64,000 nt of DNA from positions 188,501 to 252,500 of the forward strand of contig NC_090943.1 in the NCBI RefSeq assembly GCF_040807025.1. Reading direction: 5' to 3'. The translations under genes were made by a program, and so were the position numbers. Below, piece by piece: positions 11,501 to 34,700 of the stretch; positions within the stretch are counted from its first letter, which is position 1; the number at the start of each line of letters is the position of its first letter. This DNA comes from Struthio camelus (Eukaryota > Chordata > Aves > Struthioniformes > Struthionidae). Below the pieces are notes generated by a model, which saw only the letters and a program-made list of their open reading frames with translations, ran no database searches and was not told the origin of the DNA.

Positions 11501-12754
11501 TAGTGAAGGAAGTTTAACCTAGGTGAAAGCCTGATGCAGTTGCCCCTTGTGTCATGTAACTGCTGCAAACAGCTTGAGATCTGAATGTTTTGTGGTCAGC
11601 GCTGTAATCTAGGGACTGGTGCTATAAGTGTCCCTGCAGAGCTCTGAACAGTGTCTGTGTTTGTCAGGTGAGCCCCATTCGGAATCTCTCTGATGGGCAG
11701 AAGTGTCGTGTGTGCTTTGCGTGGCTGGCCTGGCAGAATCCTCACATGCTTTTCCTGGATGAGCCCACCAACCACTTGGACATAGAAACAATAGATGCTC
11801 TGGCAGATGCTATCAATGAATTTGAAGGAGGAATGATGCTCGTTAGCCATGACTTCAGGCTCATCCAGCAGGTAAGGAGGGTAGTGAATTTTAGCAAAGC
11901 ACCTTTCCAGCACCTTTTGAGCAGAGTCATTGAAAGAAGGTATTTTCAACTGATTGGCTCTGACAAAATGATGCATGAATGCAAAAGTCACTGGATATGG
12001 TTCCCTTGCCATGTTCATGCTGAGTGATTGTGTAGTCTGAAAAAACCTCAGGCATTTAAGAAAAGAAAAAAGCTAAGAATGAGTCAAGTAGAAAGCATGA
12101 CACACTGTGGAGGTCTTAATTAGATTTTTTTTTTTTAAATGGTACTGGATTAGTTCTACCAGAATTTTTTGTCACAGTCTGCAGAGGTGAGGGAAGTTGT
12201 TCCTCATTCCACATGCATGGAAATGTCAAATGCTAGTTTACCAACTGTGGCTTCTTCTGCAAGTTCAGATAGAATTTAATTTTTCTGTGCAGCATATCCA
12301 AGCAGTTCAGCTCAAGAACTACCTTTTCAATTCCCAATTTAGAAGGAAAGGATTTTTTTCTTAGTCCATGAATTAAAAGGAAATGCTGAGGGGTCAAGGA
12401 TTGCTAGTTCTAAAATCTTGAAGTACAAAATATTCAGAAAACACGGTGTAAGATATTTCACTACAGATATTTTTATTTGACAGTTTAATGTGTGAAAGTT
12501 ATTAAACTCTTTCCTACTCGCCTGTAGAGGGTAGATGTTAATTAATGTTATAACTTTGATAACACTATAAAATGCTGCACTGTAGACCTCTCCTCCCTGT
12601 CCTTGTGTGCTTCCAGGTTGCACAGGAGATCTGGGTCTGTGAGAAGCAGACAATCACAAAGTGGCAAGGCGACATCCTCGCCTACAAGGAACATCTCAAG
12701 TCAAAGCTGGTGGATGAGGATCCGCAGCTCACCAAAAAGACCCACAACGTGTGA
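2515..12754 (+). CDS. ABCF2: ATP-binding cassette subfamily F member 2, complete, 14 coding exons
   Basis: This is a soluble twin-cassette ATPase of the ABCF class (yeast Arb1 family, ribosome-associated), without membrane segments. Exons: 2515-2668, 5263-5475, 6381-6563, 6898-7069, 7232-7327, 8434-8536, 8624-8719, 8828-8947, 9495-9584, 9841-9951, 10212-10274, 10737-10865, 11668-11871, 12617-12754. All junctions are GT-AG with matching phases and give 623 residues, the length I recall for the human protein. A lysine-rich N-terminus ([18 protein letters not shown]) leads to cassette 1: Walker A GLNGIGKS near residue 118, signature FSGGWRMR near 228, Walker [12 protein letters not shown] near 250. 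A linker follows, then cassette 2: Walker [10 protein letters not shown] near 430, signature NLSDGQ near 518, Walker [12 protein letters not shown] near 545. Every catalytic motif is intact. Introns 2, 12 and 13 (0.8-0.9 kb) show nothing clear apart from an unexplained open stretch at 5690-5974. Intron 1 is described separately. Confidence 0.97.
3500..4150. promoter_or_regulatory. CpG island with octamer and CCAAT boxes inside ABCF2 intron 1
   Basis: A second CpG-rich block sits about 1 kb inside ABCF2 intron 1. It contains a CCAAT box (3868-3872), a perfect octamer ATTTGCAT (3895-3902) and an inverted CCAAT box (3914-3918), all within 51 bp, followed by GC-rich sequence with no TATA box. Octamer plus CCAAT is the layout of replication-type H2B promoters and of some POU-factor targets. 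Open frames on both strands here look like GC-rich chance frames. An internal alternative promoter or enhancer is inferred. Confidence 0.4.
3716..3830. repeat. C-rich minisatellite, about 22-bp unit, ABCF2 intron 1
   Basis: Four to five tandem copies of a unit made of a C tract followed by GGCCCCGGCT. Its long C runs could form G-quadruplex or i-motif structures. It directly precedes the octamer/CCAAT cluster. Confidence 0.85.
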
Positions 12755-12756
12755 GC
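12749..12756 (+). promoter_or_regulatory. Possible 5' splice site overlapping the ABCF2 stop codon
   Basis: The last codons read AAC GTG TGA GC. The string GTGAGC (from 12751) is a good intronic donor motif that overlaps the TGA stop. Used as a donor, it would let ABCF2 transcripts skip their own stop and splice to downstream exons. Human ABCF2 has a longer C-terminal isoform and a described ABCF2-H2BK1 readthrough locus, which fits. The exonic side (CGT) is weak, so use of this site is inferred. Confidence 0.35.
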
Positions 12757-13216
12757 TCTAGAGCAGTCGGTGAGGTGCTCTTCATGGAGACTGACAGTGG
12801 CCAATGTGACTCTCCCACCTGCCGACTGGAATGGGACTCTGCTGCTATCTCTGTGGCTGTGTTCTAGGATTGCTGCAATACTGCTTCCCCTTGACTTCCC
12901 TTGCGCCTCCATATCTGGACAGATCTCCTCTTCTCTCCTGATCTGGCTACGTTTGGGCAACCATTTCCGTATTTAGATGATGTCCCATCTAGAGCCAGGC
13001 CTTGGAATCTAGTGGCCTGGGGTCTTGGCAGTGGCAGTTAGGGTGTCTGGGTTGCAGTGATGCAGAAGTGGAGACCCCAGCTCAGCTTCTCCCACCTCTT
13101 CCCTCCCAGTTTCTGCTTCAGTTTAGATACTTCACTTCAAACTCCTCTGGCCTTGGTTTGTTTTTAACTATTATTTAACAGTGTAATTAGCAGATCTGCC
13201 TGAGAATCCATCAGTC

Positions 13217-13222
13217 AATAAA
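13217..13222 (+). terminator. ABCF2: Polyadenylation signal of ABCF2
   Basis: AATAAA lies 463 bp after the ABCF2 stop and is followed by GT-rich sequence. A second AATAAA at 13391-13396 could serve as a distal signal. Confidence 0.7.
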
Positions 13223-13239
13223 GAGGGAAGAACAGTCTC

Positions 13240-16200
13240 CTCTTGTTTTGCGAGCTATACTCGTTACTGGGGCATGGTGGGGCAAATCAGCCAGTGCTGA
13301 GCTTTTTGAGTAAGGATGCAGGGCTCTCTTTTGGGGTGAGTGTTCAGTTCTTCAGTACTGCAGTTCTCTTGTTGTGGGCAGAACTCGTGGAATAAATGAA
13401 GGAGTGAGAACTGAGCCCTGGGGGAATGGAGCAGTGAGCAGGATTCTTACACCTAGGGAGCCTCTGCTAATTCACAAAGAGCGACAAAGAGCGAACTCTA
13501 GTTTTTCTAGCTGGTGACAGAGGGAACCAAGCCACAATTGCAATCTTTTTTTTTTTTTTTTTAAACAGACACAGCTCTAAATGCTTCTGAGGATTCAAAG
13601 TTAAAAATAGAAAGTAGAGCTATATAAGTAGAGCTATTCCTTCACCTTGGATTATATGGGTCTAATATGAGACTATTAAGAATTTTTGGACTACTTGATC
13701 CTTGTTAGTTTAATTATTTTTGTTCTTAATATCAAATTTTTAGACAAGTTTGTGCTGAAACCTCACCTTGTGCCACAGAAGCTTGAAACTTGAATAATTT
13801 CTTGAACCAAATACATTTTTCATGCATTTTTGAACAATGAAAAGTTACTAAAAAAAAAAAAAGGTAGCAAAAGCAAAATACTTACAATCTCAGTTTATCA
13901 TTTTAATTACTTCCAACATATGAGAATGGCCACACTGGTCATGTGAAAAGTTCAAGTAGCACATGTTTATAGAAAAGTAGAAGGGCAGGACAAATACGTA
14001 GTTGTCCTTTCTTGGAGCGCTCTCTCAGGTGCCAGCTCTGACTTTTTGAGTAGAATACTTTCTCATTTTTTTCCAAAGGGACCATCCAAGTTGTGGACTG
14101 CTGTTAGAGAAGTACTGTGTATCATCCATGGGACAAATATCACAGCAGGAGCTACTTCCATGTTCCTGTTCAAAGCAGAAGTGGATGTTACTGCCTAAGG
14201 CGTTAGCCTCCTGCACTAGAGATGACAATTAGTATTCCAGGATTTGTAAAATGGAATGTGCATGCATGCATGCTTAAGCAGAATGTATTTCAGCCTTGAT
14301 TTAAACCTGATCTGTGGTGACAGTTTGTTAGACTGCACTGAAACAGTTATGGCAGGCATATGTCCTGGGTTACTGATTGCTGTGGGAAAGGCAGCCGCCA
14401 GCTGGAGCAGCGGTACCTCACACCGTCTCAGCTAGGGCTTGTCTGATCATACACAAAAGCTGAACTAGAGCTAGACAAACTGTCATGAGAATTGCTCCTT
14501 AGCTCCTAGGATGGTTAGCTCTGTGAAAGAGCTAGGTAGCTTGGAGCCTCTACACTGTTACTGTTGCTTGTAGTCTAAAAGGGAGCTACAGCCAAAAGTG
14601 ACAGATGCTGTGTTCAGTGCAGGGTTGTGGGCCTTTGTTGTGAGTCGACCCATATGCTGTGAAAATAGTGCAAGCATGAGTTAAGCCAAGCACCCAGCTT
14701 CCAGAATGAACAGCCTCCAGCTCCAGCTGTGTGTAAAAGTATGAATAAGATGGTAATTCCCCAAATCTGCAAATACAAATTTGACTATACTGTTCAGTGG
14801 GTGAGCCTCTGTCCTTGCTATATAACAACTGCCTGTGCTTAATGCTGAGTGCCCAATCACTGCTCCTTGTCCACCAAAGCACTAACTAAACATGTTGTCA
14901 GGAAAAAACATAACCCATGTGTGTATAACTGCCAATGCCAGGCACTGCTGCAGCGGAGAAATACCATTTATAACAGCTAACACCTCCTTCACCATTTGAG
15001 AGCCTCTGTGTGCTATGGCCAGCGGAAAAGGCAGAATAGTTCCAGGCACAAACCACTCCCTCTTTGGCTGGTGAACAGCCTCCCTGACCACAAACATCTC
15101 AGCTACTACAGCTCCATAAATCAGTGGGTGAGTGGAATGCACACCAGAGTGGGAAGCCCTGTGCTACACCTGATCAGTGCACAGACTCTTACAAAGCAGA
15201 AGTGGTGATGCTGCTGGTTCCTTCCTTCCAGTTTGAGTCATCCACCAACAGCTCCTGACACTGATAGACATCACTGAATAAGCCGCTCCTTTTCCCAGAA
15301 GAATAGTCCTTACTGCCTATCTTCTGTGCCCAAGCACGTTCACCCTTAGTAAACACACTGATGTGACCATTCCAGCCTGCTCCATGTGGTCACTAATGCT
15401 TCAGTTCTTGGGTGGAAGAAGTGGCCCCTCCACAACACTTGGACCCAGCTTTTCACTGTGATGTTCATTTGCTCTAGGGGTGGGCACTCAGATACCTCCC
15501 CAGGAGGACAGGCCTGGGATAAAGGTAAATTCAAAGAAATGCTGTTGGCTATAGAAGCACTGGCAGTGTGACCCACACAGTAGGTCTCCCACACTGAGTC
15601 CTTTGGAAGATGTGATTTGCTAATGATGGCCAGTGTGAGCAGCATAATCTGTGCCCCAAGCAGAGGGCAGCGTGCATGGCAGCACAGTGCTGCCAGTGTC
15701 CCATCTGCCAGATATGATGTATTACCCTTTCATGGGGTCTGTTGTGGTGCCTGCTGAGAGAAAGGCTCCCTTTTCTCTTGTATCTAGAGTAAAGGATAGA
15801 AAATGTTGCTATTTGGTTCACTTCTCTACTGGGTTGCTGCACAGTTTGTTTGTTTGGTTTTGGTTTTTTCCTGGCTGAGCTTAATTTCTGCATCATAATT
15901 ACCTTCCCTAGTGTGAGCACTGGTCTCCAAGACAGGTCAAACATGTACTCAGGGTGCCAGCCTCCCTTTCCTGCTGCCTCCCTCCTGTCCTTTCTCCGAA
16001 AGGAGCCTTGTTGTGTGAAGCAGGCAGGACTCCCCGCCCAGGTTAGCTGAGCGGGTGGGAGGAATACTGCCTGTCGGGGTGTTTACACTGCTTTCATTCA
16101 GTCACTAATGCTCCCCCTAGTTATTGATCCTCCATTGACTGCACTACCTGTTCCACAGAAGTGGTCCCACCCACTTCCTCCTGGAAGCAGTGCCTCCAGT

Positions 16201-16490
16201 GCTCTGGTTTCCATCCTTCCACCAAAGCAGGAGCCCTCCTTTCACTAAAACCCTGGATGGACCTGCCCTGGCAACAGCTCCTCTCTGGTGCTCCTGTCCT
16301 ATGTGAATGGGACACTACTGCCCTTACGCATGTCTTTGCCCTTACAACTCTTACAGCTCTTTCTCAGGGCTGAAAGTCTCATTGAATCAACTGCTTGGAA
16401 GCTCCTCCTGGTCAGTGCAAAGTGGAAGTGTCAGATCACAGATGTGTATCCCTCCCACTCTTAGGGGTCACACCTGTGGCCAGTGAGGGA
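13240..16490. other. ABCF2-H2BK1 intergenic stretch, no gene recognised
   Basis: About 3.2 kb of mostly AT-moderate sequence. The first part (13.54-13.87 kb) has T and A homopolymer runs. A GCATGCATGCATGC-type palindromic run occurs near 14263. Short open frames are not supported by splice context or any family match I know. I see no RNA gene. Confidence 0.6.
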
Positions 16491-16498
16491 CCTGCTGC

Positions 16499-16505
16499 TA
16501 TATAA
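16499..16505 (+). promoter_or_regulatory. H2BK1: TATA box of the H2B variant gene
   Basis: TATATAA lies 57 bp upstream of the H2B start codon, which predicts a very short 5' UTR as usual for histone genes. No octamer or CCAAT box is obvious in the 100 bp upstream, unlike canonical H2B promoters. Confidence 0.6.
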
Positions 16506-16562
16506 CTAGCCCCATGTCAGTTACTTGCTGCTCTGTTAGAGCTTGCTCTGGGAGAGGCTGGG

Positions 16563-17611
<1,049 letters not shown>

Positions 17612-17624
17612 CCGCCGCGGGCCC

Positions 17625-17630
17625 AATAAA
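17625..17630 (+). terminator. H2BK1: Polyadenylation signal of H2BK1
   Basis: AATAAA begins only 14 bp after the stop codon, so the 3' UTR is extremely short. No canonical histone 3' stem-loop is seen near it. Confidence 0.75.
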
Positions 17631-17639
17631 GCGACCCTG

Positions 17640-17930
17640 CCGCGCTGCCGCCGCCGCCTGCTCTGTCATGGCGCCGCCGGGGGAGGAGGGGCGGGGGGAG
17701 GGGTTCGCCGTCGCCATGGGGACGCGCGCGGTTGCCGTGGCGACGCGGCTGCCCGGCAGCTATGGCCGCCGGGGCGGGGAGCCCGGTGTCCTGGGCGGGG
17801 GCCGGGGCCGGGCGCAGGCCGGGGCCGCTGGAGGGGCGGGCGGGGGCTCCTCCGCCCAGCGCGGGGCGGGTCGGTGCCCCGGGGGCCTTGCCCGGTAGCC
17901 CCTTCCCGGCGGGATGGGCCTGGGTAAGGA
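17640..17930 (+). promoter_or_regulatory. CpG island with two RFX X-box motifs, probable promoter of the IQCA1L relic
   Basis: Directly after H2BK1 is a dense CpG island. It carries GTCGCCATGGGGAC (17710-17723) and GTTGCCGTGGCGAC (17731-17744), which match the palindromic RFX consensus GTTGCCATGGCAAC at 11 and 12 of 14 positions. Paired X-boxes are typical of promoters of motile-cilium genes, and IQCA1/DRC11-family genes encode axonemal proteins. An ATG at 17762 opens a Gly/Ala/Pro-rich frame to a fair donor (TGG|GTAAGG, exon end 17923); this could be a first exon, but I see no family match in it. Confidence 0.5.
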
Positions 17931-18930
17931 GCGAGAGGAAAGCCAGGTGCTGCTCCTCCGGGAGCCTGCTGGGTGTTTCCTCGGCGGTCAGTGTGAGAAC
18001 CGCCAGTCCGGCCTTGCGCGGGAAGGGGGACCACGTTCAGAAAGGGCAAGCGCGCTTTGCCTTTGGGACTTGGTGGGGGACGGGGATCCAACACGCGCTT
18101 GGGTGCCCTGGATTCTCGGCTGCAAGTCCTCGAGGGGGCTAGCAGCACCCCGGAGGGGGATGGAGCGCAAACCTGCCCTGGTCCCTCGATGGTCACATCT
18201 CATGTAAATTACAGGAGAACCTCGGTTTGGGGGGTGCGAGCTGGAAGCTCAGTACAAACACACAGCGCTGCTGCGGTGCCTAAATATTCTGCAGAGCTCT
18301 CCAGTACAGCCTTTTGCAGCTCAAATGAGTTATCTGCAGTTTTTGCCCCCTTAAAAAGGATAAGAACGAACCAACCACTAGACTTGGAAGCTGGTGGCTC
18401 TTCAGGGTCTTGACCTCATGATGAGCAAATGGGGAACTGTTATGTTAATCACACTTCAAAGGAGGAAAATAGAAAACTTTACTATTAAATGAGTTTAGAG
18501 GAGGAGGAAAAGTTAAGATTTTAAATTTTCTGAAAGTTTGTCAGGTGTTTATAGAATTGAGATCATTGATAAAGGGATATTTTGAACTGAAAATCAAATC
18601 TGATTCAGAGAAAGCAACGCTTAAGGTGTTAAAGGGTGGTGTAACAAAACAGTAACATAGATGTCGTGGAAAACGCTTGCTGGCTGTCAGCAAAAAATAT
18701 TAAAAGTATGGATAGTGGTAAGATAATGAATACAAATCCTTCATATAAGGAATAAAAACAACAAAGTCTTGCAATGATATAGAACAAGTAGTAAGTACAG
18801 AAATATCATCTATTTATAATTATTTTTACTATTTGAAAAGAAATTTTTTTGATTAATAATTAAAAAAAAAAGCTGCTTCCTGGTCCATTTATAGATAAGA
18901 GTGCGGTTTAAATAGCAGTTAGATGAGCCA
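17931..18930. other. Unassigned sequence between CpG island and CR1 relic
   Basis: The first half is GC-moderate and the second half AT-rich. No coding match, RNA gene or clear repeat is recognised. It would be intron or 5' region of the decayed IQCA1L gene. Confidence 0.5.
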
Positions 18931-19470
18931 GTCGCTTGAAGGTCAGTGTGCCTAGGTTACTTTTACCTGGGTTTCAAAAAAGTAGGCCAGGGAACTTTTT
19001 AGCCCACTGGCATTTATTAAAAATTATTGGAGTGGCAGAAGGCTTTCAATAAAACTAGGAAAGAATCATGTTCCACTGTGGGAAAGGAGAGTAGCGTGGG
19101 CAGATGTGGGCCAGTTAGCCTGGTGTTAATCCCAGGCACAATAATGTAAAAACAGCTCTAAGACTTATTTGATAAGAAATTAAAGGATTGGAGCATAACT
19201 AATTATAATTAAAGTGGTTTGTGGAGAGTAGATCTTATTTTATCACATCACAAGCTTCATTGATAATGCCATAGATTCTTTCTTTTTAATTTTCAGAAAG
19301 ATGCACTTTGTTTCTTGGCTTTAATTAGCTCTTTATGGCACTGATAGAACACCCAATTGAAGGCTGATATCTCTGAGCTACCTGGTTCTCAGCAAGTTGT
19401 TAAATAAAATCATCAATGGAAGTCGTCTTTCTGGTGGAGTCCTACAGCAGATGATACTCAGTCTGATCAG
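18930..19470 (+). mobile_element. Old CR1-type LINE fragment (reverse transcriptase region)
   Basis: The plus strand reads as a decayed CR1 reverse-transcriptase segment. Around 19108-19155 it resembles the CR1 'pigl-t-vpgKimek' region, 19150-19260 the following helix and fingers segment, and 19400-19450 the 'viNGs..s...v.sGVpQGs' region. It is full of stops and indels, has no intact ends and is clearly ancient. Identification is from memory of CR1 consensus structure. Confidence 0.6.
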
Positions 19471-21242
19471 TTAAAAAAGCAAAATCTCCTGTTGGCTGTC
19501 TGCAAATAAACTTAAAAAAATGCCAAGGAAGTCTTTCGTATTTGCATTGTAAATGGTGAAGTGTTCTGGTGGTCTGTGACCATCTATATTGGTTTGTTGG
19601 ACTGAGCGAACAGCTAGCTGCTGTTCGAAAACAACCAAGTACAACTAGGAGCAGAGACTGCAGGGCATGCTTGCAGAAAGCTAGGGTTATCCTAGGAAGT
19701 AGGATGGGCACCTCCACAGTTCTTCAAACTTCTTTTTTCAGTTTTCAGGTTCTCAATTAATTAAAAGATTCTGTTGTCTTTGAGGTTCCTATCGTTCTTC
19801 CTAAAATGGATACTTCCCTACCATGCTGGGTCTCTTTGCACAAGCCCGGGTATCCGCATGCTGCTGTACCAGCCAGATCAGAGACCAAATCCCCTGGTAT
19901 CAGTGGGACACAGTCTGCAGGAGATGGAGTTTTGCAAGCAGTTTATAAACAGAAGAAAAAATTCCCTTGTTTCCTCCTGGAGGAAAATCCTCCCCTCCGG
20001 CTATGGGAGGAGGAGACAGAGCAAAAAGGAGCTGGGCTGACTGGGAACACAACGAGGATTTTTTCCCTGGAACTTGTGGACCTTGTCTCTTTCCTTGCTT
20101 CCAGTGGCTTTGAAGAGGCAGCTTTGGCCAGCTGGGCTGGGACTGAGGGGCATCTGCTCTGCCTGGGACTGTCATGTTAATGACTATAGCCCTGTCCATT
20201 TTCGTCAGGCTCACAGGGAGTTTCCCACCCCCAGGTACTTCCTACAGGAGTGAGCCAAGACCCCCCTGAAGGGAGCATTTGCAGATTCTGTGCGAGATTC
20301 TCGCATGGATGGAGCCTACACAGCCCCAAGGGGTGAGTGCGAGTGTTGTGTCCAAGCTAGTGGTGGAGTGTGCGACCTCCTGGGCTGTGGTAGGTCAGCC
20401 TGGCTGCCCTTTTGATGAATGCAACACCCTGTCAATGAAAAGATGTGCAGGGCTGCCTCCAGGTTCCTACAAGGAGGTGCTGCTGCCTTAGAGTCTGTGG
20501 TGGAATGAAGGAAAGGAATGAGCTATGTTCTGGGTTGAGATGAGATGGATGTCCTTTGCCAGCCTGATGATGGGAGAGCGCAGTCCCAAGGTTTGTTCCA
20601 GTGGCAGCAGAAATGAGGGCAGAGGAGGGTGAGGAGGAACCAGAGCTGTGGCAGAGTCCAGCTGACAGTATGTGGGACAATACTGGACCTTGTAGGGCCT
20701 ATGAGGTGATGATGCGTCTCATGAGCTATGGAGCCATGACAGGTGCCTGTCTCTGAGTGAGCAGGGTGTCAGTCTGGCTCAGTGGTGCATGCCTGACAAG
20801 ATGTGCGATGCTCCTAGAAAGCAGAGCAGGCAGCACAGTACAGGAGGCGGCAGAACTGGGATGGGGCATGTGACCTTTTCTTCCAGCCCTGTTGCTACAG
20901 TGTGGGGCTGGCTGGGGGAGGAGGGGGGAAGATGAGAGGGAAGAGGGTGTATGGGGTGCTCTGTTTCCTTTTGACTGTAGGACAGCATTGGAGAGTGCTC
21001 TTTTCTTCCTAGTGTCCTATCTGCAAGCTAAAACTGGTCCTGGGCACAGGTGTCAGAGCAGCATCTCACCTGACAGGGCTGTACTCCTTTTTCCTTTCCC
21101 TCTAGCCCTTGTGGCCAGTCATGCTTCAGGAAGAGGCTGTGCAGCTGGTGCAGGTGGGAGAGCAGGTGTGTCAGGGCTGCCTGCGAGCCAAGTTCATGGG
21201 GGAGATCCAGCGTAACGAGCAGCATCAAAAGCAGGCCTGAGA

Positions 21243-21286
21243 TGCTATTTGCATCCAGAAGGTCTGCTATTTGCATCCAGAAGGTC
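21243..21286. repeat. Perfect 22-bp tandem duplication across an IQCA1L pseudo-exon donor
   Basis: The 22-bp unit, beginning TGCTATTTGCATCC, occurs twice in a row. It duplicates the exon end (ATCCAGAAG) and its poor GTC donor. Perfect identity of the copies suggests it arose recently relative to the other lesions. Confidence 0.9.
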
Positions 21287-24000
21287 GGTAGTTCTGCTAG
21301 GCCAAGCTACTCTATTGCTCCCTAGGTCACAGTGGCATGTCTGTGTGAACCCCTACCCAAGCTCTCCCACTTCCCCGGGCCCAGGATGCGCACTTAGGCT
21401 TTTTGTGCGATGACAAGCGCTCACGAATAGCTTGGAGCTGCAGTTCTGCCTCTGCCCTGGAGGTGGTTCTCTCTGACTACCAGATGTCAAACGCATTCTG
21501 ATCTGCAGCATGGATGAGAGCTTGGTGCTGCCCAGCTCCAAGTAGACTGCTTGGGGAGCAAGTAACTTCGCTGTATGGCACTGTGGCTCCCTCAGCAGTT
21601 GTAACTGGCCCATGTGGGTAAGATGCTGACAATCTGTGAGAGAGGAGCGGCTGTCTTCTGGGAGTGGCTGGTAGAGCATCTCACACTGGGGGAGCCCAAA
21701 AGGAGTAAGGCTTTAGTGGTGCAGGTACTTGATTGTCCAGTCCTGGAGTCTGAGGATCCCAATCCTGCTTCGTTACCCCCTTCCCCACCTCCCGAGGCTG
21801 AGAAGCAGCAAGCTGGTAATCGGCTCCATACCCCTCTTGCATCCCTCTGTATCCTTGCAGATCTGGAAGGGCAGCCTGTAGCGGAGCTGCACTGAGCTGA
21901 AGAGGCAGAAGGAAATGATCTTTCCTGGGATGGCGAGTTCTGCACAGATCCTGCCCAGGTTGTTTTTTCTGCATTTCCCATATGGGGGCAGGGCTGCCCA
22001 TCATTACACAGGTATCATGCCACTCATTTCCCACAGTACATCTGCATGGGGCTGTCCTGGTACGTCTGCACTGGGTGCCACAGACAGTCCCTCCCCTCTG
22101 AGGGACCACTTTGCATGCTTAGTCCTGATGGGAGCTTTCTGTGAGGACACAGCTCAGCTTCTTCCAGACTGGAAGAAGCTCCTGTGGCTCCATGCCCTGT
22201 TTGTGCAATGGCGCTCTAGTGGCTCAGGTGAGGTCTAAGCTCAGCGGAGTTGTCTCAGGAAGGAGGGGGTGGGCTGTGCCACCCATCAGGGATTCACAGG
22301 AAATTGGCCACTGTGAGAGTGACACGGAGGCACTCAGCTAACAGTAAAAAGCAAAACTGAACTTGAAAGAGCACCTGCATGGGGCCCAAAGCATCTTGGG
22401 ACTGCCTCTGTCTGTGAGGGTCTGTCATTTACCAGGTCTACCTGTGTCCTTGCAAGTGTGCCACTGAGTTTTTAATGCTGTATCTTTGCAGCGCTGTGGT
22501 GTTCCATGTCCCTGGCCCCACATCTATGTCCACCTGCTTTGTTCTTATTGAGCTATACATGTTCATGGACACGAACCGCTTTTGTGTTGGTCCATTCTTA
22601 AAGGCCAGAGAAAGAGCACTATAGTGTAGGAAACCGAATCAAGTGAAGTATTCATGAAAATATCCGGCATATGTGTATTCCTCACTTTCCTTTCTGCAAG
22701 ACAACAGTGACTTAAATGTCTTTGCTCTTTTTGTCTCATGGGGTGGGGGACCATGGGGCAGAGCACCTCTGGTCTATGATGAATGGTGCAGGTATAGAGA
22801 GGGAGCTTTTTAGGCAATGAAGGCTTGCACCAGTATGCAGACCTGTGTGCATCTCTCTTCCCATGTTGCTGGGTCCCTTTCTGCCAGGTGGCTGCTCTGG
22901 TGCATCATTAGACATTGTTCCAAATAGCACCGGCAGGAGTGGTTCAGCACTCAGAGGAAAACGAGCTGGTGATGGATAGCTCTGGTGATGCCAAAGTCAT
23001 TAAAATATGAACCCCTGATGAAGTGCAGCCAGTGTTCCAGTGCCTGCAGCAAGGGATAGAATGACTCTCGTCCTTTCTGTGCTCAGCTGCTGGAGGTGGG
23101 GTGTGGGGACAATGCTGGTCTTTGTCCCTTCCCTTTTCCAGTTTGGTCTGAAACAGGCTGTTGTCCCTAAATATTGGTGACTCTCTAACTCATGGTGGCC
23201 CAGAATCCCTATCTGGAGAATGTCAGTTGACAAACACCTTGCCGTCTGAGTGTTTGGTGTCCCTGATGCCGTTAGTGCTCTAACGGGACTGAGGGTCTGT
23301 GGCATCCTTGGAGCTATTTTCCATCTATGTCCTACCCAGCAAGGATCACCACAAGTATTTTTTCTTGTTTGTTCTTTCTCTTCATGCTCTGTTCACTTTG
23401 GAGTCCGCACTGTAGCCAGCAATGATGCTGCATCTCTCCTCTTCCCTGCTTGGTGTTATGGAGTGTGAGTAGGAGTGCTATTCATGAGTAATTATGTGAA
23501 AAAAATGAGCCTTATTTGGGATCCATAATATTCAGGGCCAGATAACAGTGGGTGTCAGAAAGCATCCTTGTTCTAATGCCCTCTTCCTGCTCTATTACCT
23601 ATTGCCAAAGATGGGGGCAGACTGGAAGTCCAGCTATCTGATAAGGCAGTTTGTGATGCTTGTATATGGAGCTGCCAGGCACTATTCAGAGCCCCAGTGA
23701 CTCGCCATGAGCCTGCACCTCCCTGCCCCTGAGGCTGTGAAGTTTGGGACAGGGCAGAGCACTTCTCTGTGGCCTGAGAACAGAAATGGAAGGAGAGGAT
23801 AAGGGTGCTCTCATGTAAACAATGCGTACAGGGATGGGCTCAGGAGAGATGCCTGGTGGTACCCTATGTGGTCTCTGAGTAGGGGAAAGGGAGGAGGGTA
23901 CTTCCCTGTGGCCCCATGCAGGGTGTCGGGTTGGAGAAGAGGATGACATGGGCAGAGTGGCCCCATGAGGAATGGCTGCTGCAGGCCACACGCCGTTTTC

Positions 24001-24180
24001 CCATTAGCGAGTGTTTAGTTCAGCGTTTTAAATAATTGTGTCCTCGGAATGATATTTAAAATCCATTTGGGAGGCAATGAGGCGGGAAAGTGCCTGTGCC
24101 ATTGTGATGACGCTGCGCAGGGCGCGCCACACATGCATATTACAAACTCGTTACAGACTCGTTTACACGCACGCTGCTTG
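24001..24180. other. Candidate conserved non-coding block within the IQCA1L relic
   Basis: A compact segment with AT-rich cores (TTTTAAATAATTG, GATATTTAAA), an E2F-like GGCGGGAAA, a TGACG and CpGs in an AT-rich setting (GTTACAGACTCGTTTACACG). It differs from the flanking decayed sequence. Non-coding conservation is inferred from composition only. Confidence 0.3.
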
Positions 24181-26759
24181 CTCCCCACACAACCTCTTTC
24201 TGATGGTTCTAATGTCTCTTCCCTGCCATGGCTGCTTCTGCTTGGCACTAGAGAGAAACTTACTTGATAAGGCAGGCCTGGTGTCATCTACAGCAAAAGA
24301 AGTGAGGAGCATGCCCAGGGCAGAGGAGTGCTGGGTTTGGAAATGGGGGCTTGGGGGCCATGCTTGCTGGTGGGGCTGTCTCTCTGGTGTCCTGTCCTTC
24401 ACCTGTGCTCCACGCTCAATACAGAGTGGTAGCTACTTTCTGACAAGCCCTTGCACTTACGTTCTTGCGGGCTCCAGACCCCACAGGCCCTGGGGCTCTC
24501 GGCTGCTGTGCTGTGGGCACAGATGGGGAAAGAGTTGCAGCATCTGTACCCAGGATGACTATGAAGCTGAGTACCAGCAGGCTCTGGTGAATGTCCATGA
24601 GAAGCTGCATGAGCTGGAGAGACTAGGCAGAAGGGAGCAGATGGAGCAGCAGCTTCAGCAGTGGTTCACTGAGTGCTGGTGAGTGGCTGAATGGGGTGAC
24701 CCTGCTGCTATCTCTGCCTCCCTGTTCCTCTCTGACTGCCACATGGACACCCTACAGCTGTCCACCTCACCTGTAGAACATCAAAACCCTACGCTGTGTT
24801 ACAAGACTCCCAGTATCACCTTGTCCTTGTACTGTTGGGGTCCTGGAGACATGAGCAATGTTCATTCTTCTCCCATTGTCCCCTCCCTCCTGATCATACT
24901 CAGCCACTTCTAGCCAAGGTCCTGGCTGTGATGTTGCATGGTGCCATTTTGTGACCAAAGTTAGTGGAGTGGGGATGAACTCCCCCCACCCTCCCCCAAC
25001 CAGGGCTCTGCAGCTGTACCCAAGGGCAAGCTGTGTTCTGCCATCCACAGAGAGCACAGTAACCTCACTGGCTGCTTCCGTGACTTTCCTGGTGAGGAAA
25101 TAGGTGGCTGTAGCATCCTTTTCTCTGAATAGACCTCTGAGCAGGTAAAAGCAAAGCTGGAGTAGGGACAGAGGCTGTTATATTAGAAGAGGAAGGGCAG
25201 GATATCAAACATGGGGCCTCTCTGGGGTTGAAGTGACAAATGGTCTCAGGAGGTGGGGTGAGCTTTCTCCCCACCCCACATGCTGCTTATTCTGAATTTC
25301 TAGGGTGCTGGAAACGCATATGTGGTGGGATGGTCTCAGGGTGGAGGGACTGGGTCTCACAGCCTGATGCTGAAGGGATGCTAGCTCTGATGTGATAGCA
25401 CCTGATGTGAGAAAGGTGAGAAGGCAGGGGAGAAAGAAAAGGGCATGAAATTGGTGAGATCTTGGCTGCCAAGAAGACCAGGAAAGGGGCTGGAGGAGAG
25501 ACAGAGATAAGGTTCAGGCCAGGGCTTGAGAAGAGCGTGAGGGAGAAGGCTGGGAAAGAAGGGGAGGGTGGTACAGTTGGGAGATGGCAGCAAGCAGAAA
25601 TAGGGGCTGCAGGACCTTCCCTTTCCTATGTGTTTTGGAGCTATGTCCTCTTCCCTGTCTTAGTTTATGAGAGTAAGTCACTGGGTCGAAGGTTTTTGCC
25701 CAGGAAGATGGTGAAGGTTTGATCTTGGCTTCACCCGAGTTCCTGCCAGCGATCAGTGAAGCATTCACAAAGTACTCAAGTAAGGGGGACTGCATACTGT
25801 GGTTGGGAGGGAACTGGAGCTGCTGTAACTGCAGCACAGAACAAGAAGCCAGAAAGTGACACTTAATGGTTGGTGGCTTGCAGGGTTTATGTGCACGTGT
25901 TTGCAGGCAGTTTAACATGATATATCCCCCTTACTGTTCCCTCCCTCTGCATGTATATGTGAGTAGGGAGGCTCCAGCTGAACCTTTGCCTTGCTCTCAG
26001 AGACTACGGTTGCCTGTGGTCAGGGCATTACACTATTTTCAGTACACAGGGCTTTGGGCAGTGGCTCTCCACTTGGCACTTCCTGTCTCACTGACCAGTT
26101 ACAGCTGTGGTGCAAGAGGCATAAACCCATCTTGGGCTGCCAGTCCCTTGCTTACTAGTGCCTTCCAGTGTGAAGGGAGGAAATCTGAAATGCAGGCATT
26201 TAGATTAGCACATGTACTGGATGCTTGGCTTCACTTACCGAGACCCTGAATGTTGTCTGATGCCCCCCTTAGCTGTCAGTGGAGGGCACCTGGCTGCTCT
26301 GTATGCCAAGCTTTATTCTTCATGTGCATCCTGGTTCAGCTGAACCAAGCCAGGCTGTCACATGTTTGTGTGTCAGCTGTCTGTGCAGTCACCCTGCCAG
26401 GGGATGGCTCAGAGGTGCTGTAGGGAACAGGAAGGGCTCTGCTGTTGAGAAGGCAGCACTTTTTCCCTAATGGTGGCAGTGGGCTGAAACACAAGAGGGA
26501 AAGGCTTGACATGAGGATGAATGAGGTGATAAGAGATGTGCTGAGATGTCCTCCTGAAGGATGTGATATGGATATAGAGGGGTCTTCAGGGTGGAAGTCC
26601 TGATGCCTGTAGGAGTGAGGACAAAAAGGAGCTAGAAGGGTCCATCTGGTGAAGTCCAGCTACCCCATCTTTGCAGCTCTTTGGGGGAATCAGGATGAAT
26701 CTAGCACTTTGGAACAGCAGTATGACCTGGAGCTGATCAAGGCACAGAAGAGGAAGGAG

Positions 26760-28044
26760 GTAGAAAAAGATTCACCTGCTTTTAGTCACAGGATAATGAT
26801 GTTAACGAGTGAAACAGCTTCTCTGTTCCGTAGGATAGTTGGTGCAGCCCAGGAGAGAAGCCAGGCAAGTCAACAGAAGGGTTTCTAATGCGATCTCTCT
26901 GTCCAGCAGAGAAGATGGCATGGTCCAGGAGAAAGGTGGTTCCGGCTGTGTGCTGCAGTCCAGGTGTGGTGCCATGGGATCCCTGCCATTAGCTCTCAGG
27001 CACTCCTGTTGCCTTTCCTGGGGTCTCTGCCAGATCTCTCCAGTGACCCCCAGCCCCATCAGTTGTAGGACGGGGTAGAGAATACCTCATTCCAACTGGT
27101 TCAAACTCCTGTGGCACCTGATGATTGGATGTTGCCACTGCTGGTACTCACAGCTTGCCCATCTGGAAGGTTCTTCACGTGTTGGCCGTGACACAGCGAT
27201 TAACAGGTTAGGATAGGGTAGGATAGTAATTTGAGGGTAAGCAAAGCTTAACCAGTCCCAACCCTATGTCAAACTGCCACAACATCCTAGCTAACGCAAT
27301 CCTCTCCATGTCCTACAGAGTGAGCAGTAATGACTGGGGCAGGGCAGGGTACTTCAGCAGCATCTTTCACCCCTCCAAATGTAACTCAGAAGAGTCAGAA
27401 GCCTGAAGACACTTGCTGAGCTCCTGGGGTTCTCACAGGAGACTGTCTTTTCTAGCCTCAGGAAACTTGTTTTATTTCATTCAAGCTGCTTTACCCAAGG
27501 TGTGCATGTCGCTTACTCTGCTGGACTGTGTGTAGGCAGCCAGTCTCAATGGCCTAGTGGAAATGCTAGGCTCCCAAGAGCTGGAGGTGTCCAAAGGGAA
27601 GGCATCTGTATGCAGTCCCTCACAATTTTCACTACTGCTTCTGCTGCAGGCCTCTACCTAGGTACCCTAACCTTAATTTTTTTTTTCCCTTCCCCCACTT
27701 CTGTTCTGTTTCTTCCTCAAGTGGAGGCACAGCGCAGTGCAGAGCAGAGACTTTGCAGAGCAAACTAGCAAGCGTATGAAGAAGGTTTCAGGGCTGCCTC
27801 TTGCCCCTCTCCTGTGCCCAGCCTGCCTTGGAGATCAGCTCCAGCAGCTGATGATAAACTGTTGCAGAGGGGGGAGGTGGCGGAGGAGAGCTGCCAAGTG
27901 GAACTATTTATACTGTCTGAGTCAGGCCTGTGCCTGAGTCCAGCCAGACACTGGAGTGCTGGAACCCAGAGGCAACCCACAAAGGACACAGCCTTGAACA
28001 AGAAGCTCTGGGCTGCAGCAGCTTGTTTACTGTAAGGTTCAGGC
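26760..28044. other. Gap between IQCA1L relic and ASB10 alternative exon
   Basis: No AAA-domain exons, Walker motifs or other coding match are recognised. A short T run lies near 27678-27686. Several short open frames lack support. Confidence 0.5.
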
Positions 28045-28387
28045 TTGCCCCATGTGTTCCCAGTGATGGACTGCACCTTTTCCTTCAGCTCCGCCACGCT
28101 GTGCTCACTGCAGCTGGACGAGGAACAGCTGGATCAGTGGAAGTACTCTCAGCGCCTAAGGCCAAGACACAGAGAGGGCAACCTAAACCCAGTGGGCCAG
28201 GGATGCCAGAACAGAGCCACTGGAGGTGGCCGCACAGAGCCACTGGAGTGCCGGGACCTGCTGGTCCAGAATGCACTCTTCACTGGGGACCTGGAGATGG
28301 TTCGAAAGTACTTCACGAAGGGTGCAGCTATCAATCTCATAATTGAGACCAAGGGTGATGAGCTGCGCTGGACTAGCAGGAAATTTG
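28045..28387 (+). CDS. ASB10: Alternative first coding exon of ASB10
   Basis: An open frame ends with NALFTGDLEMVRKYF and then IIETKGDELRWTSRKF, ending one base into a codon before donor G|GTGGGT. That phase equals the phase of the main first exon (31703-31913), so both can splice to 33141. The join would read KF-GLWSLTY, as in the ASB18-type N-terminus. The start codon is uncertain (ATG at 28045 or 28066), and an AG at 28086-28087 could instead be an acceptor for an upstream exon. Splicing here would give a 471-residue isoform. Human ASB10 also has isoforms differing in the N-terminus. The donor is acceptable but not strong. Confidence 0.55.
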
Positions 28388-31300
28388 GTGGGTATGCAGG
28401 GCTGGGACGTTGGTGGTTGGGAAGACCCCAGGGTGGGGATCAGGGATAGAGCAGAGGCATCTGGGAAAAGTGCTGGGAGGAAGCCCCAGTCATGGAGACA
28501 GGGTGGTGGAAGAGGGACATGAGGGAAAAGAAGTTTTTGGGAGAACAGAGCTGCAGAACAAACTACCAGGATTGTTGCAGGTCTACTGAGAAGTGATGAG
28601 AACAGGGTGTTTGGGAGGGGTCTCAGAGAGGAAGAACGTCAGGACTGACCTGACTGAGACTGCTGGGATGGATATGAAGTATGTGTGAGGTGGAGAGCGA
28701 GTGCTTTAGTGAGAAGGCATTGAGTGGCATAGGGATGCTTTTCCTGCCTTGTGCCTTGTTGGGTCTGTTCCAGTCCACTAAGAACTGGTCTGTGACATGC
28801 TCTGGGAATAGCAGAGAGGTCCTGGCAGTGCCCTTCAGCATTGTGGGCTGCTGCTTGGGAACCAAGCCACAGTCACTCCACGCACCTATTGCTGATGCTA
28901 TGGTGACATCCAGGTGTCAAGCAGAGCCATTGATATCCCTGTTTCAAACACTGACTTTGGCGGCTGTGGGGGAGTTGATATGGGAGAGTTAGCGGTGATC
29001 GCTAACTGCTAGCAGTGATGAGGGGCCTTTGCTCCAGAACAGAAGCATTCATTCCAGGCCTAGTTTTGCTTTTCCTTCATGAACGAGGTTTGCACCCTTC
29101 CAGCTATTTTATTCTGAGAGACAAGCTGGGCGAGGGGGGCAGGAATCTGATCTGCTAGAAAGATGACAGAAGCAAGCCTGTTCTGAGTGACGGGAGACAG
29201 AAGCCGGTCGCCCTTGGTACTTCCTCCCATCCATACACCTCACCGTACCTTCTGCCTAGGTATGTCTTGTCTGCACTACACATACCTCCGTGCTCTTTGG
29301 TCCCTTTTGATTAGGTTTTCATCAATGTCATCTATGAACTTTTCAGTCCTGGAGTAAGTGGCATGACTGATGTAGGCTGTGTCAAGGGGAGAGGTGTCCT
29401 TAGGAATGTGGAAGGCCACGTGTTCTTGCTGCTGCCTATCTGCTAGTAGTGTGTTGCAGGCAGGCGGGATTTAAGACGAGGAGTGTCAAGTGTGAAAGGG
29501 GAGCATTACTGGGAGTGTTTGTGCTACTCACTTTTTCCATAGATGATGCTGGAGGTGAAAGCCTCACTGTGCCAGAATAGCAGAGCTGCTGATGAAGGCT
29601 ACTTCCCAGAGGCGTAGGTTCCTTATAGTGTCCTAGCAGCAAGCTATGGAGGATATTGATAAAGCTTGAGCCTGACTGTTTTTTGGGGATCTGAGCTAAC
29701 GAGAGACAAACACATAGGGTAGGCTTGGAGATGCAAGTGCTTGATACCTTTGGGTGCTGAAAGCTATTTACTGAGTGCCAAGGTCTGTATACCCAAGGTT
29801 TTGAATTTTTATAGTCTACGTAGGGAAAAAAAGGCAAAAAGTTATTACTCTTTTTGTGTAACTAAGACCTCTTGTCAGAAAAATATTAATTGCACTTTTT
29901 AACTCTGAAGTGTTCCTGTCGTGTGCTGGGCTGACAGACCCTTGAACAGTAAGCCAGTCTGCTTGCAGAGATTTCTGCCCCAGAGACAGCAGAACAGCTT
30001 ATGTAAAACAACTTCGCCCAGAAATTGCTCTTATCACCAAACTAACAAGATATGAAAAACCTAACCAAACACCTCCGTCCATCAAGCACAGACCACAAAT
30101 GTACTGCAAGATTTATCAAGCAGGGATACAGAGCAAAAAAAAAAAAAAAAAAGCAAACCTACATGCTACCAAAGTCTTTGGTCCCTGACCTGTAGGGACT
30201 TTTTCCCAAAAACTATCCAGTGAGCAGCCCTAAAGGTAGATTCCAGTGACTTGGCCTTTCCTGAGGCCAGGAACTGATATTTTAATATCCCAACTGATAT
30301 TTGAAGGAGCCCAGAGGAGGTCTAAGTTGAACAGTGTTACTGACACTATCTCGCACAGCCCTTTGTCTCTCTGGCAATGCTCTTGTGAGCTAGGAACTCT
30401 GACTCCCGTTGGATACCTATTTATAGCTTTGGGGAAACTGAGAATCCCAGCAGGTGAGGCAGTCTGCAAAGGCTTCCCTCTTTTTAACCCCTTCTTGCAC
30501 TATGTTGTAGCTAGACTAGTTGGTAGTCAAATCTGCTCAGACAGAGGATGCTGGAGAATATGAGTAAAATATATAGCTTGGTCATTTATTTTTCCCTACT
30601 GAGAAGGGTAGAGTTCCTTATCTTATCCTCTTCTCTGGTCCCCCAGATAATCATTGTTTGGTGGTCTATTGGAGTCAGTTAACTTGGTTTATAGCTGCAT
30701 GATCTAAGTAGTTCCATGACGGGAGCTGTGAGCAAAGAGCCGGCTCTGCTTTACTGCTGTGCTGGATGATGCTAATGTTGTGTAACCAAAGCAGGGGCAG
30801 GATGGGCTTATACAGTGGAGCAGTGGGAAGTGGTCTCCCAGGGTGAAGGGACAGTGGTGAGGAACCCTAGTGGAGGGGACTGTCAAAGGAAGGGAAAAGG
30901 CAGTACTGAAACAGTGCAGGAGCTCTCTGCAAGACTGAATTTCAAGGAAAAGGAGGAGGGGTTTGAAAGGACAACTGTCTTCTATATTTTTACTTCACTT
31001 GTAATGGACCGTTTACCACCTTGTACCTATTCCTACCTATCCTTTGTCTTTAAGCTTTGATAAAAAGAACTCTCCTCTGATTTGTTTAAAAACCTGTCTA
31101 TTGCCATGGGCTTGGATGGAACCAGCAGATGGGGGGTTGCAGTGCTGGAGATAAGAAAGAAGGCAAGGGCTGGATAATGCACACTGTTGGGGTATGGAGG
31201 CAGCTGGGTCAGGCTGTTGTGGCCTGGGCAGCAACTGGGTGATTATAGTCTGTGTGTTAAATGGAGGCCAAAAGGCGAGATGGGTGCCTTAGAGTGGTTG

Positions 31301-31702
31301 GCTGTGGGACTACTTCCTTCTCTGGCTTCTCTGTGCTGCCCTGTCTCCTTCTCTACCCTCCAGGCTCCTCTCCTACCCTGCCTTGTATGGGGCCTTTCCC
31401 TTTACAGCCAGTTGCTGCAGAGGTGTTGCTGCCCAGGAGGAGTGTCCTTTTCTGCCTCAAGGGCAAACATTTGGTCACAAGGTTCCCCAGAATAGAAGAG
31501 CTGAGACCTGAGCTGTACCCAGCCTGGGCCAGCAGTGATGTGGCACATCCCTGCTCCCTGCAGAGTGCACCGGGGCACACAGAGGGCTCTTTGGTGCAGA
31601 GCATAGGGCACTGGTGGGGCTGCGCCCACAGGCTCAGAGCCTGGTCAAGGAGGCGGCTGCAGGTCCAAGCCCGGCTCCTACCTTGAGTCTGGGTACTGTA
31701 TC
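28388..31702. other. ASB10 intron between the two alternative first exons
   Basis: About 3.3 kb with no gene recognised. It includes a perfect 7-bp inverted repeat GTTAGCG/CGCTAAC at 28988-29006 and an A17-18 run near 30136-30153. Short frames on either strand lack support. Confidence 0.5.
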
Positions 31703-34700
31703 ATGGGCACAGCAGACAAGAATCAGGAGCCCATTTGCACACGGAAGGTGAATGGCCCTGCCCAGGCCTACTGGCAGGCCCTGCTGAGGGGGGATCAGGG
31801 GATTATAGCAGAGATCCTCAGCAACCCCCAGAATAATCTGAGTCCCAGCTCTGTGTTTGACATCAGCAACCTGGAAGAGTGGAAAAACTACCGTTTCAAC
31901 TTCCGCTGGCTGAGTATGCAGGGGGTGGTGGGGCAGGCAGCATGGCCCAGCTGGGCAGGGGCTCAGATCCTCTTGCTTATGCTGCAGGGCATCACTGCTG
32001 CTGGGTGGGGTGTGGTGGGCACTGTTTGGGGTGTGGAGTGGGGATAGGAGTGAGAGCACTGGAGAGTGGCTGGGTCACCTGTGCTGCTTGTGGGAGACTG
32101 TACCTACGTCTTGGAGTGCCAGCTGTGTCCTGGGGTACCTGGCTCTTCTAGCCTGGGAAGCTGCCTGGGCTTCCCTGCCAGACAAGGGAGAATCAAGCTT
32201 CAGGTTGTGCTGCTCCTGTGACCATGCCTGTAGCCTGGCTCTGTGTGCCTGTCCTGTCTGTGTGCATCCTGTGCTGTTCTCTTTGTGGGTTGTGCTGGGC
32301 AAGGGAATGTCACAGCTCTGCTCTGGGCCCTTGGAACAGCTCCGTTTGAATCTGGTCCTTCCAAACACAGTTTGTGCCACACTGCTTCTGGGAGAAAGAG
32401 ATGAGAGAGATGTTGAGCCTGTCATGCAATTGGGGACATAGTCCTCCAGCTCAGCCTGGAGGAGCTGCAAGAAGCATGATACAGGGACTGCAAGCGTGAT
32501 TTGGGCTGTAACAGCTGCAGGCTGTTTGTCAGCAGACCACACCAGCTCAGCAATGGTTCCAGCCAGGTCAGAGTCTTTGAGAGCTGGCAGGTTTCAGCTT
32601 CCTGCTCTGTCCTCGGCCCCAGATGCCCACCTCTGCCCAGGCTTGCTTATCCATGTCATGCTCAGGGCCTGAATATCCTATATGCGTGCCCTGGCAGCCT
32701 GCTCCCATATCTCCTTGTTTTACTGCCTGGTTCCTTGTATTTGTGGTCCTTCATGCATGGTGCTCTTCCCAGGCCACCTTGCTGCTTCCAGCCCTGCCTG
32801 TGCCCCTGGGTCCTTCATCTACTCTCCTCCTGCCAACAGAAGTCCCTGTGCTGCATGACTGAGCTACAGAGGAAAAGTCCGCTCCCCTGGAACAGCCTCT
32901 GCCCCAAGGCTCCCTGACAGTGTGACCACGTAGCCTAAAGGGACACCCTCTGACCTATGCCTTTTACAGGCCAGGCAAAGGGCAAGGGCCTTGTGGGGAA
33001 GTGGCTGGCAGGAAGAGGCAGCCCCTGTTTCTTGAGAGGGGAGGTATGGCAGGTACCATGGGGGAAAGGGCAGGTCTGGGCCCAGGGCTTTTGTGCGCTC
33101 TATCTGGACATGGATCCCTGACCCCTCTCTTTCCCTGCAGGGCTGTGGTCTCTGACCTATCAGCAGGAGCTCACCGCGCCACTGCACATCACGGCCAGCC
33201 GGGGCTATGCAGACTGCCTGCAGTTCCTGCTGCTCAGGGGTGCTGCTGTCAACTTTGCACCAGGGGGCAAGACTGCCCTGCATGAGGCTTGCACAGCAGC
33301 CAGTACAGACTGTGTGCGCCTGCTGCTCAGCTTTGGAGCTGACCCTGAAGCTGTTTCTGAGGATGGTTACAAGCCTCTGCATCTCTGCAAGAGCCCAGAC
33401 TCCATCCAGTGAGTTCTGTCTGGTGGGCCATGGTAGACCTCCTTCCCCCACAAGCCTTATCCTATGCAGGAGGGGTCCCTACTCATCTCTGCAGGCGGGA
33501 CAGCAGCAGTAGCTGCTGAATAGGGTGGCCGCATGGTGTTTTCCCAGAGCAGGTGCCACCACTGAAGTCCAACAGCTGCCTACAAGCTCAGTCCTCAGAG
33601 CCAATGCAGTTGAGCCTGGCGCTGCTGTCTTGCCATCTACCAGCAGTGCAGGGCCTATGGGTCGCACTGTGACGCTCAGGCCATGTGCTGTGCAGACAGG
33701 CCTCCGGGTGGGTGGGTGGGAGCTGACTCTGGGTGTGAGACACTTACTAAAGCTCTGTGGAAAGCTGGCTACAATTAGGGTAACAGCATGTCTGCTCACC
33801 AGCACTCCCAGCTTAAAGCCACTGCTCCAGGGCATGGGGAGTAGGGGTTTCTGGATTCTTGGGAGAAGTGAGAGCCGTGGATTGGCACAGCTGGGACGAG
33901 AAGGGTAGGGGGGTAGGTTGGACAGGAGTTAAGAGAGTCTGTCACTAAGTCATCTTGGGCCACATAGGTGTGTCCAGCAGCTGCTGCAGCATGGTGCCAG
34001 TGTGAACAGCCGGACAGAGGAGGAAGATGACACAGCACTGCATGTGGCAGCACGGCATGGCCTAACAGACCACGTCCAGCTGCTTCTGCGCTATGGGGCA
34101 GAGCTGGAGGCAAAGAATGAGGAGGGACAGACCCCACTGAATGCTGCCTGTGCTCAGCCCCACCAACCCCAGGACATGGAACGCTACTACAGGGTCTGCC
34201 AGCTTCTGGTGGAGAGTGGTGCTAACATCAATGCTGCAGACAGGGACCGCCAGCACCCGCTTCACTTGGCCTGCAAGAACACCAATCCTCAAGTAGTGGA
34301 ATTACTGCTGGCCCGGGGTGCAAACGTCAACATCATGAACTACAGCGGCAACACGGCACTGCACAATATCCTGCAAGCCACTGCCTACAAGCTGGAGCAC
34401 CAGCCAGAGCTTGTGGTCCGAGTCCTGCTCAACTACGGTGCCATCCGCATCTGGCCTGGCTCCCTCCTTAAGGTGCAGGACCCACAGCTTTGCCCAGAGC
34501 AGGGCAGGAATGGAAGGCAGTGGACCCTGAGGTCCCTGTGAGAGCAAGGATGTCACTACTGCCGCAGGGCTTGTCCTCTGCCAGCTTCCTAGCTCTCTGT
34601 CCTGTCTCTCTCTTCCCAGTAGTTGGGGGAGGGGAAGCCTTAGGGGATGCCCTGAAGCTCTCTCCTGGGGCGAGTTCTCCTGCTTCTGTTACCACTGTCT

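Follow-up and report, generated by a model that had tools for sequence, protein, structure and literature searches.

Background

The ostrich is a palaeognath bird. Among the gene losses described in birds, that of STK33 is close to the case reported here: STK33 is a unitary pseudogene in the 28 neognaths studied and was kept in palaeognaths (ostrich, emu and tinamou), as given in the accessible part of PMC4509753. WDR93 and CFAP46 were lost in several bird lineages through disrupting changes and segmental deletions (PMC10445033, accessible part). The gene considered in this work is IQCA1L. Human IQCA1L is testis-specific (PMC8594701), and its similarity to IQCA1 was given as 50-60 % (PMC7436996). 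In sperm, the level of the IQCA1L protein tracks progressive motility in the horse, and static and slow sperm in the donkey (PMC11311092).

When a 64-kb window of the ostrich genome (the whole stretch of DNA that was analysed) was examined, seven exon relics of the DRC11 family were observed in the interval that separates ABCF2 from ASB10, all on the + strand and in order. Judged from the sequence, they very probably represent a unitary pseudogene of IQCA1L. The event is an ordinary, already known kind of gene loss, of which the relic is a fresh instance. As described for STK33, the relic would be a unitary pseudogene in a bird, marked by indels, stops and exon loss and lacking a copy elsewhere, and a possible link to sperm is common to both, as STK33 may act in spermatogenesis (PMC4509753, accessible part). 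However, the STK33 loss concerns neognaths whereas the putative IQCA1L loss is found in a palaeognath, and the STK33 study, in its accessible part, used 28 neognath genomes and transcript data, compared with a single genome for the IQCA1L relic. IQCA1L would also resemble WDR93 and CFAP46 as a motile-cilium gene lost in birds. According to the accessible part of PMC10445033, those two genes encode parts of the central-apparatus C1d, whereas IQCA1L is the second copy of a part of the nexin-dynein regulatory complex, with the paralog kept. The ostrich's own IQCA1 belongs to the same family as the relic and shares its exon phases and the sizes of exons 4, 6 and 8, but it gives an open model with the AAA half and is about 39 % identical to the relic over the common part.

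No earlier report of IQCA1L loss in birds was found in the literature searched (titles and abstract openings, with few subscription papers), and the main text of two avian missing-gene papers does not name IQCA, DRC11, ASB10 or ABCF2. The relic would be one documented case, from a palaeognath bird, of a testis-specific ciliary paralog being lost, and its lesions can be looked for in other bird genomes. A loss found throughout birds would amount to a natural knock-out, from which a single DRC11 would be seen to suffice for bird sperm.

Results and discussion

Locus and neighbouring genes

The window (C2:188501-252500) was searched on both strands and contains no N, and the genome searches covered the assembly of 1.45 Gb (262 contigs). 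Two globins were rebuilt from this assembly. Its beta globin agrees at 146 of 146 residues with PDB chain 3a59_B, which is also present in entry 3fs4. For alpha-A, the top single-copy match is the 3a59/3fs4 chain (305.6 bits versus 277.6 bits for the one after it), ranked below six double-length constructs. Both entries are taken to be ostrich proteins, which makes ostrich the very probable source of the assembly. ABCF2 (2515-12751) and a GBX homeodomain (56694-56888) were matched with approximate queries, and ASB10 (31730-36411) with an approximate human query. All three are on the + strand, in agreement with the intact synteny claimed in the earlier note. ABCF2 is presumably the gene on the other side of IQCA1L in human gene order. 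The relic, also on the + strand, is flanked by ABCF2 and ASB10 and therefore occupies the position of an IQCA1L orthologue; human IQCA1L is the closest gene beside ASB10 (PMC8594701, accessible part). The tRNA and Rfam scans gave no match.

Reconstruction of IQCA1 as a template

Two IQCA1 chains from the PDB were used as templates, namely 8j07_11 (IQCA1/DRC11), which we take to be the human chain, and 9fqr_Ok. IQCA1 was rebuilt from 120 kb of contig C6 (266 N) as a spliced model that was barred from stops and frameshifts. The resulting open model of IQCA1 (DRC11) lies at C6:3951779-4050509 and consists of 18 coding exons and one 2-nt artefact segment. Relative to human IQCA1, the model spans residues 2-817 at 61 % identity. 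Because these residues are covered without a stop or frameshift, IQCA1 looks intact in ostrich at the sequence level.

The 18 exons of this IQCA1 were then used as queries against both strands of the whole window, with frameshifts permitted. The best scores elsewhere were taken from the + strand outside 20001-27000 or from anywhere on the - strand. Significance was estimated with dinucleotide shuffles of the proper interval of each exon.

Exon relics

For exons 2, 3, 4, 5, 6, 8 and 9, the top-scoring matches follow one another in order on the + strand from 20218 to 26771, and the relics span 20209-26780. Their scores were 42.6, 74.9, 51.3, 86.2, 72.2, 28.8 and 83.3, respectively, compared with 32.6, 34.2, 40.6, 29.8, 33.9, 28.5 and 39.9 for the best places elsewhere in the window. 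No shuffle reached the score of exon 2 (0/60), exon 3 (0/200), exon 4 (0/100), exon 5 (0/100), exon 6 (0/200) or exon 9 (0/60), and the score of exon 8 was reached by 9/200. The best places of the other eleven exon queries were scattered across the window and out of order. When a spliced alignment was made for 17001-34000 with lenient penalties, a score of 548 was obtained versus 250-297 in 7 control stretches; the small extra 'exons' in this alignment are noise and only the total was compared with the controls. When the pieces of exons 5 and 6 were searched against the PDB with phmmer, IQCA1/DRC11 chains were hit at 1e-9 and 2.4e-9. A third chain, of DRC11 type, followed at 1e-4, and two further rows were at chance level (E > 1).

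The relic of exon 2 (20209..20332) corresponds to IQCA1 residues 113-152 and has 124 nt, compared with 117 nt in the ostrich IQCA1 and 120 nt for the human residues. It ends with an IQCA1-like reading (ILCEILA) followed by a GTGAGT donor. Exon 3 (21106..21261; residues 153-216) ends with the start of the IQ motif (IQK) and is shorter than its IQCA1 counterpart (156 nt versus 189 nt). The IQ motif continues in exon 4 (21861..21932; residues 217-240), which has exactly the 72 nt of the ostrich IQCA1 exon. Exon 5 (24478..24678; residues 241-308) has 201 nt versus 206 nt and keeps its phase-2 donor, and exon 6 (25060..25144; residues 309-337) has the same 85 nt as in IQCA1, with an acceptor at 25058-25059. 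Exon 8 (25704..25779; residues 379-403) is also of the IQCA1 length (76 nt); it is preceded by AG, followed by GT and runs from phase 0 to 1. This candidate exon is weak by score alone and is backed by its exact length, phase and place. In exon 9 (26677..26780; residues 404-439), the match to IQCA1 extends to about 26765; the donor position of the ostrich IQCA1 is lost and an alternative GT is present at 26760. All of these relics are on the + strand. The donor phases of exons 2-6 and 8 (0, 0, 0, 2, 0 and 1) are kept as in the ostrich IQCA1, with a GC donor in exon 4.

The six pieces that the earlier note had described were thus recovered by the IQCA1 exon queries with their order, strand and phases, in a search of both strands of the whole window. 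They were not the full set, as the note had missed the seventh (exon 8). The relic shares with the DRC11/IQCA1 family both the homology in the N-terminal and IQ regions and the exon borders and phases.

Exons 1, 7 and 10-19

For exon 1, nothing above chance was found in 12752-20208, where 14/60 shuffles reach the best score. A position at 19914-20103 was given by a loose spliced fit only, is absent among the best local places and was rejected. A possible exon 7 is a stretch rich in lysine that ends at 25450; its score of 27.6 is reached by 2/200 shuffles.

The nine queries for exons 10-19, which include the AAA half, gave nothing convincing in 26760-31729 and nothing in order anywhere in the window. 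For seven of the nine, the best score in 26760-31729 was reached by 10-32 of 60 shuffles. A candidate for exon 11 (30136-30189) is a poly-lysine reading of an A-rich run and was taken as low complexity (1/60 shuffles), and a candidate for exon 16 (2/60 shuffles) is an isolated match and was not accepted. The check for AAA exons in the locus, whose presence would speak against a loss, therefore agrees with the earlier note. The note had reported that no AAA half is visible in the 1.3 kb left before ASB10; the absence holds, but the remaining distance may be nearer 5 kb, as the match to ASB10 begins at 31730. The C-terminal AAA-ATPase domain that belongs to the DRC11/IQCA1 family was not found at the relic locus, and for this reason the locus would be the relic of a family member and not a working member.

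Disabling lesions

Four stops were found in the relic exons: TGA at 20251-20253 in exon 2, TGA at 21238-21240 in exon 3, TAG at 21879-21881 in exon 4 (inside the IQ motif) and TAG at 25130-25132 in exon 6. In addition, there are two frameshifts. The one in exon 2 lies before 20285 and amounts to a net +4 relative to the human exon (+1 modulo 3). In exon 5, one extra base near 24553 puts the first 25 and the last 41 codons in different frames. Five of the seven relic exons are affected by these lesions, while exon 8, which has no stop, and most of exon 9 are free of them. A perfect 22-bp tandem duplication (21243..21286, + strand) covers the end of exon 3 and its donor. The exon 4 donor is GC and not GT, as could also occur naturally in a GC-AG intron, and the shortness of exon 3 may be ancestral.

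The stops in exons 2, 3, 4 and 6 had all been listed in the earlier note, whereas the exon 2 and exon 5 frameshifts, the GC donor and the 22-bp duplication had been missed. The fifth stop of that list, at the 24678/25051 junction, was not retained. It needs an acceptor at 25051, while the acceptor before 25060, 9 nt downstream, reads TG|T (Cys) at the junction and gives an exon 6 of 85 nt as in IQCA1, without a gap and with a better fit to IQCA1. On these grounds it was taken to define the putative start of exon 6 and the junction stop, which is not secure, was left uncounted, although the acceptor at 25051 may have been the one used.

Search for other copies in the genome

When the whole genome was searched with 8j07_11, 24 places were obtained. 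Thirteen are in the IQCA1 locus (C6 3.955-4.051 Mb), one is in the window (26658-26771; E 3.3), nine are elsewhere and match the query within its AAA part, and one is at chance level. The best PDB matches of the six strongest of the nine AAA places were fidgetin-like 1 (three places), CDC48, the outer mitochondrial translocase and katanin, and no DRC11 chain was among the 60 best PDB matches listed for each. The whole assembly was also searched with a 125-residue query made of the 3' part of relic exon 5 and of relic exons 6, 8 and 9. This gave seven places, of which four are in the window, one is exon 5 of IQCA1 (E 0.6) and two are at chance level. A second IQCA1L or other DRC11 paralog was not found in the 1.45-Gb assembly by either search, with the six strongest of the nine AAA places identified.

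The locus therefore combines two features of a unitary pseudogene, namely several lesions at the original site and no functional copy found elsewhere. The earlier note had proposed such a pseudogene of IQCA1L, and its proposal is supported by the four stops and two frameshifts over five exons, the unfound AAA half, the intact synteny and the lack of another copy.

Relationship to IQCA1 and alternative explanations

A rival reading takes the relic as an incomplete copy of IQCA1, made in this lineage and never functional, and hence not as a unitary pseudogene. The detection of exons only from 2 to 9 speaks for such a duplicate, but the identities point elsewhere. When aligned by hand, the relic is identical to human IQCA1 at 101/256 residues (39.5 %) and to the ostrich IQCA1 at 99/254 residues (39.0 %), while the two IQCA1 proteins share 155/277 residues (56 %) over the same exons. 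Had the duplication taken place after birds and mammals split, the relic should resemble the ostrich IQCA1 more than the human one; its equal distance from both proteins therefore points to an old paralog and not to a recent duplicate. Furthermore, blastn of 19001-28080 against the IQCA1 locus found nothing better than E 0.02, and the relic sits exactly at the IQCA1L position. We consider a duplicate of this kind extremely unlikely. The assignment of the relic to IQCA1L is accordingly a proposal drawn from synteny and old DRC11 paralogy, in a comparison with IQCA1 proteins only.

The locus could also be a living gene, truncated or reorganised, in which splicing avoids the stops and yields a short DRC11-like protein that lacks the AAA domain. 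Exon 8 is indeed open, as is most of exon 9, and several of the splice sites and phases have survived, but with lesions in five of seven exons and the AAA half not found, a gene of this type is very unlikely. Moreover, exon 5 runs from phase 0 to 2 and exon 6 from phase 2 to 0, and skipping either one alone breaks the frame. Nothing was found in favour of errors in the assembly that disguise a working gene, and this reading is hardly credible: the window, although known from a single assembly, is free of N, and four stops, two shifts and nine unmatched exon queries are too many for a few base errors.

Proposed decay and age of the probable pseudogene

With the unitary pseudogene of IQCA1L as the preferred reading, the parent would have been a DRC11-type protein of the nexin-dynein regulatory complex, in which a coiled region at the N-terminus, an IQ motif and an AAA domain at the C-terminus were present. 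Such a protein can no longer be made from the relic because of the stops in exons 2, 3, 4 and 6, the frameshifts in exons 2 and 5, and the lack of a detectable exon 1 or AAA half. The need for the testis paralog may have relaxed while IQCA1 remained; one disabling change would have come first and neutral decay would have followed. The AAA half was presumably lost by deletion, as suggested by its absence. We infer that the DRC11 role in ostrich is now filled by IQCA1 alone and that the loss of IQCA1L was tolerated because of its overlap with IQCA1.

The stop count, four in 249 kept codons, translates under neutrality into a K of about 0.10 substitutions per site after constraint had ceased (Poisson 95 % 0.027-0.254). 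At bird substitution rates of 1-2 per billion years, this is some 50-100 million years, but the range is very wide and the loss can only be called probably old.

CpG island and the region before ASB10

An isolated CpG island (17501-18000) with a GC content of 0.77 and a CpG observed/expected ratio of 0.85 was observed 2.2 kb upstream of relic exon 2. No IQCA1 exon was found within the island. It is possibly the old promoter of IQCA1L or an active orphan promoter. In human, an enhancer in the 3' end of the neighbouring gene is believed to drive the ASB10 promoter (the ASB10-IQCA1L pair; PMC8594701, accessible part). A wider scenario can be drawn in which IQCA1L was lost at or near the bird root, DRC11 became single-copy in bird sperm and cilia, and the locus was kept as the CpG island and relic introns still control the muscle gene ASB10. 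We regard this scenario as speculative and rather unlikely.

An open reading frame was also observed at 28036-28449. Its start codon, at about 28066, lies close to the start of ASB10 that the earlier note had apparently assumed. As the match of the human ASB10 query begins only at 31730, this frame may be an alternative first exon of ASB10 or may be non-coding.
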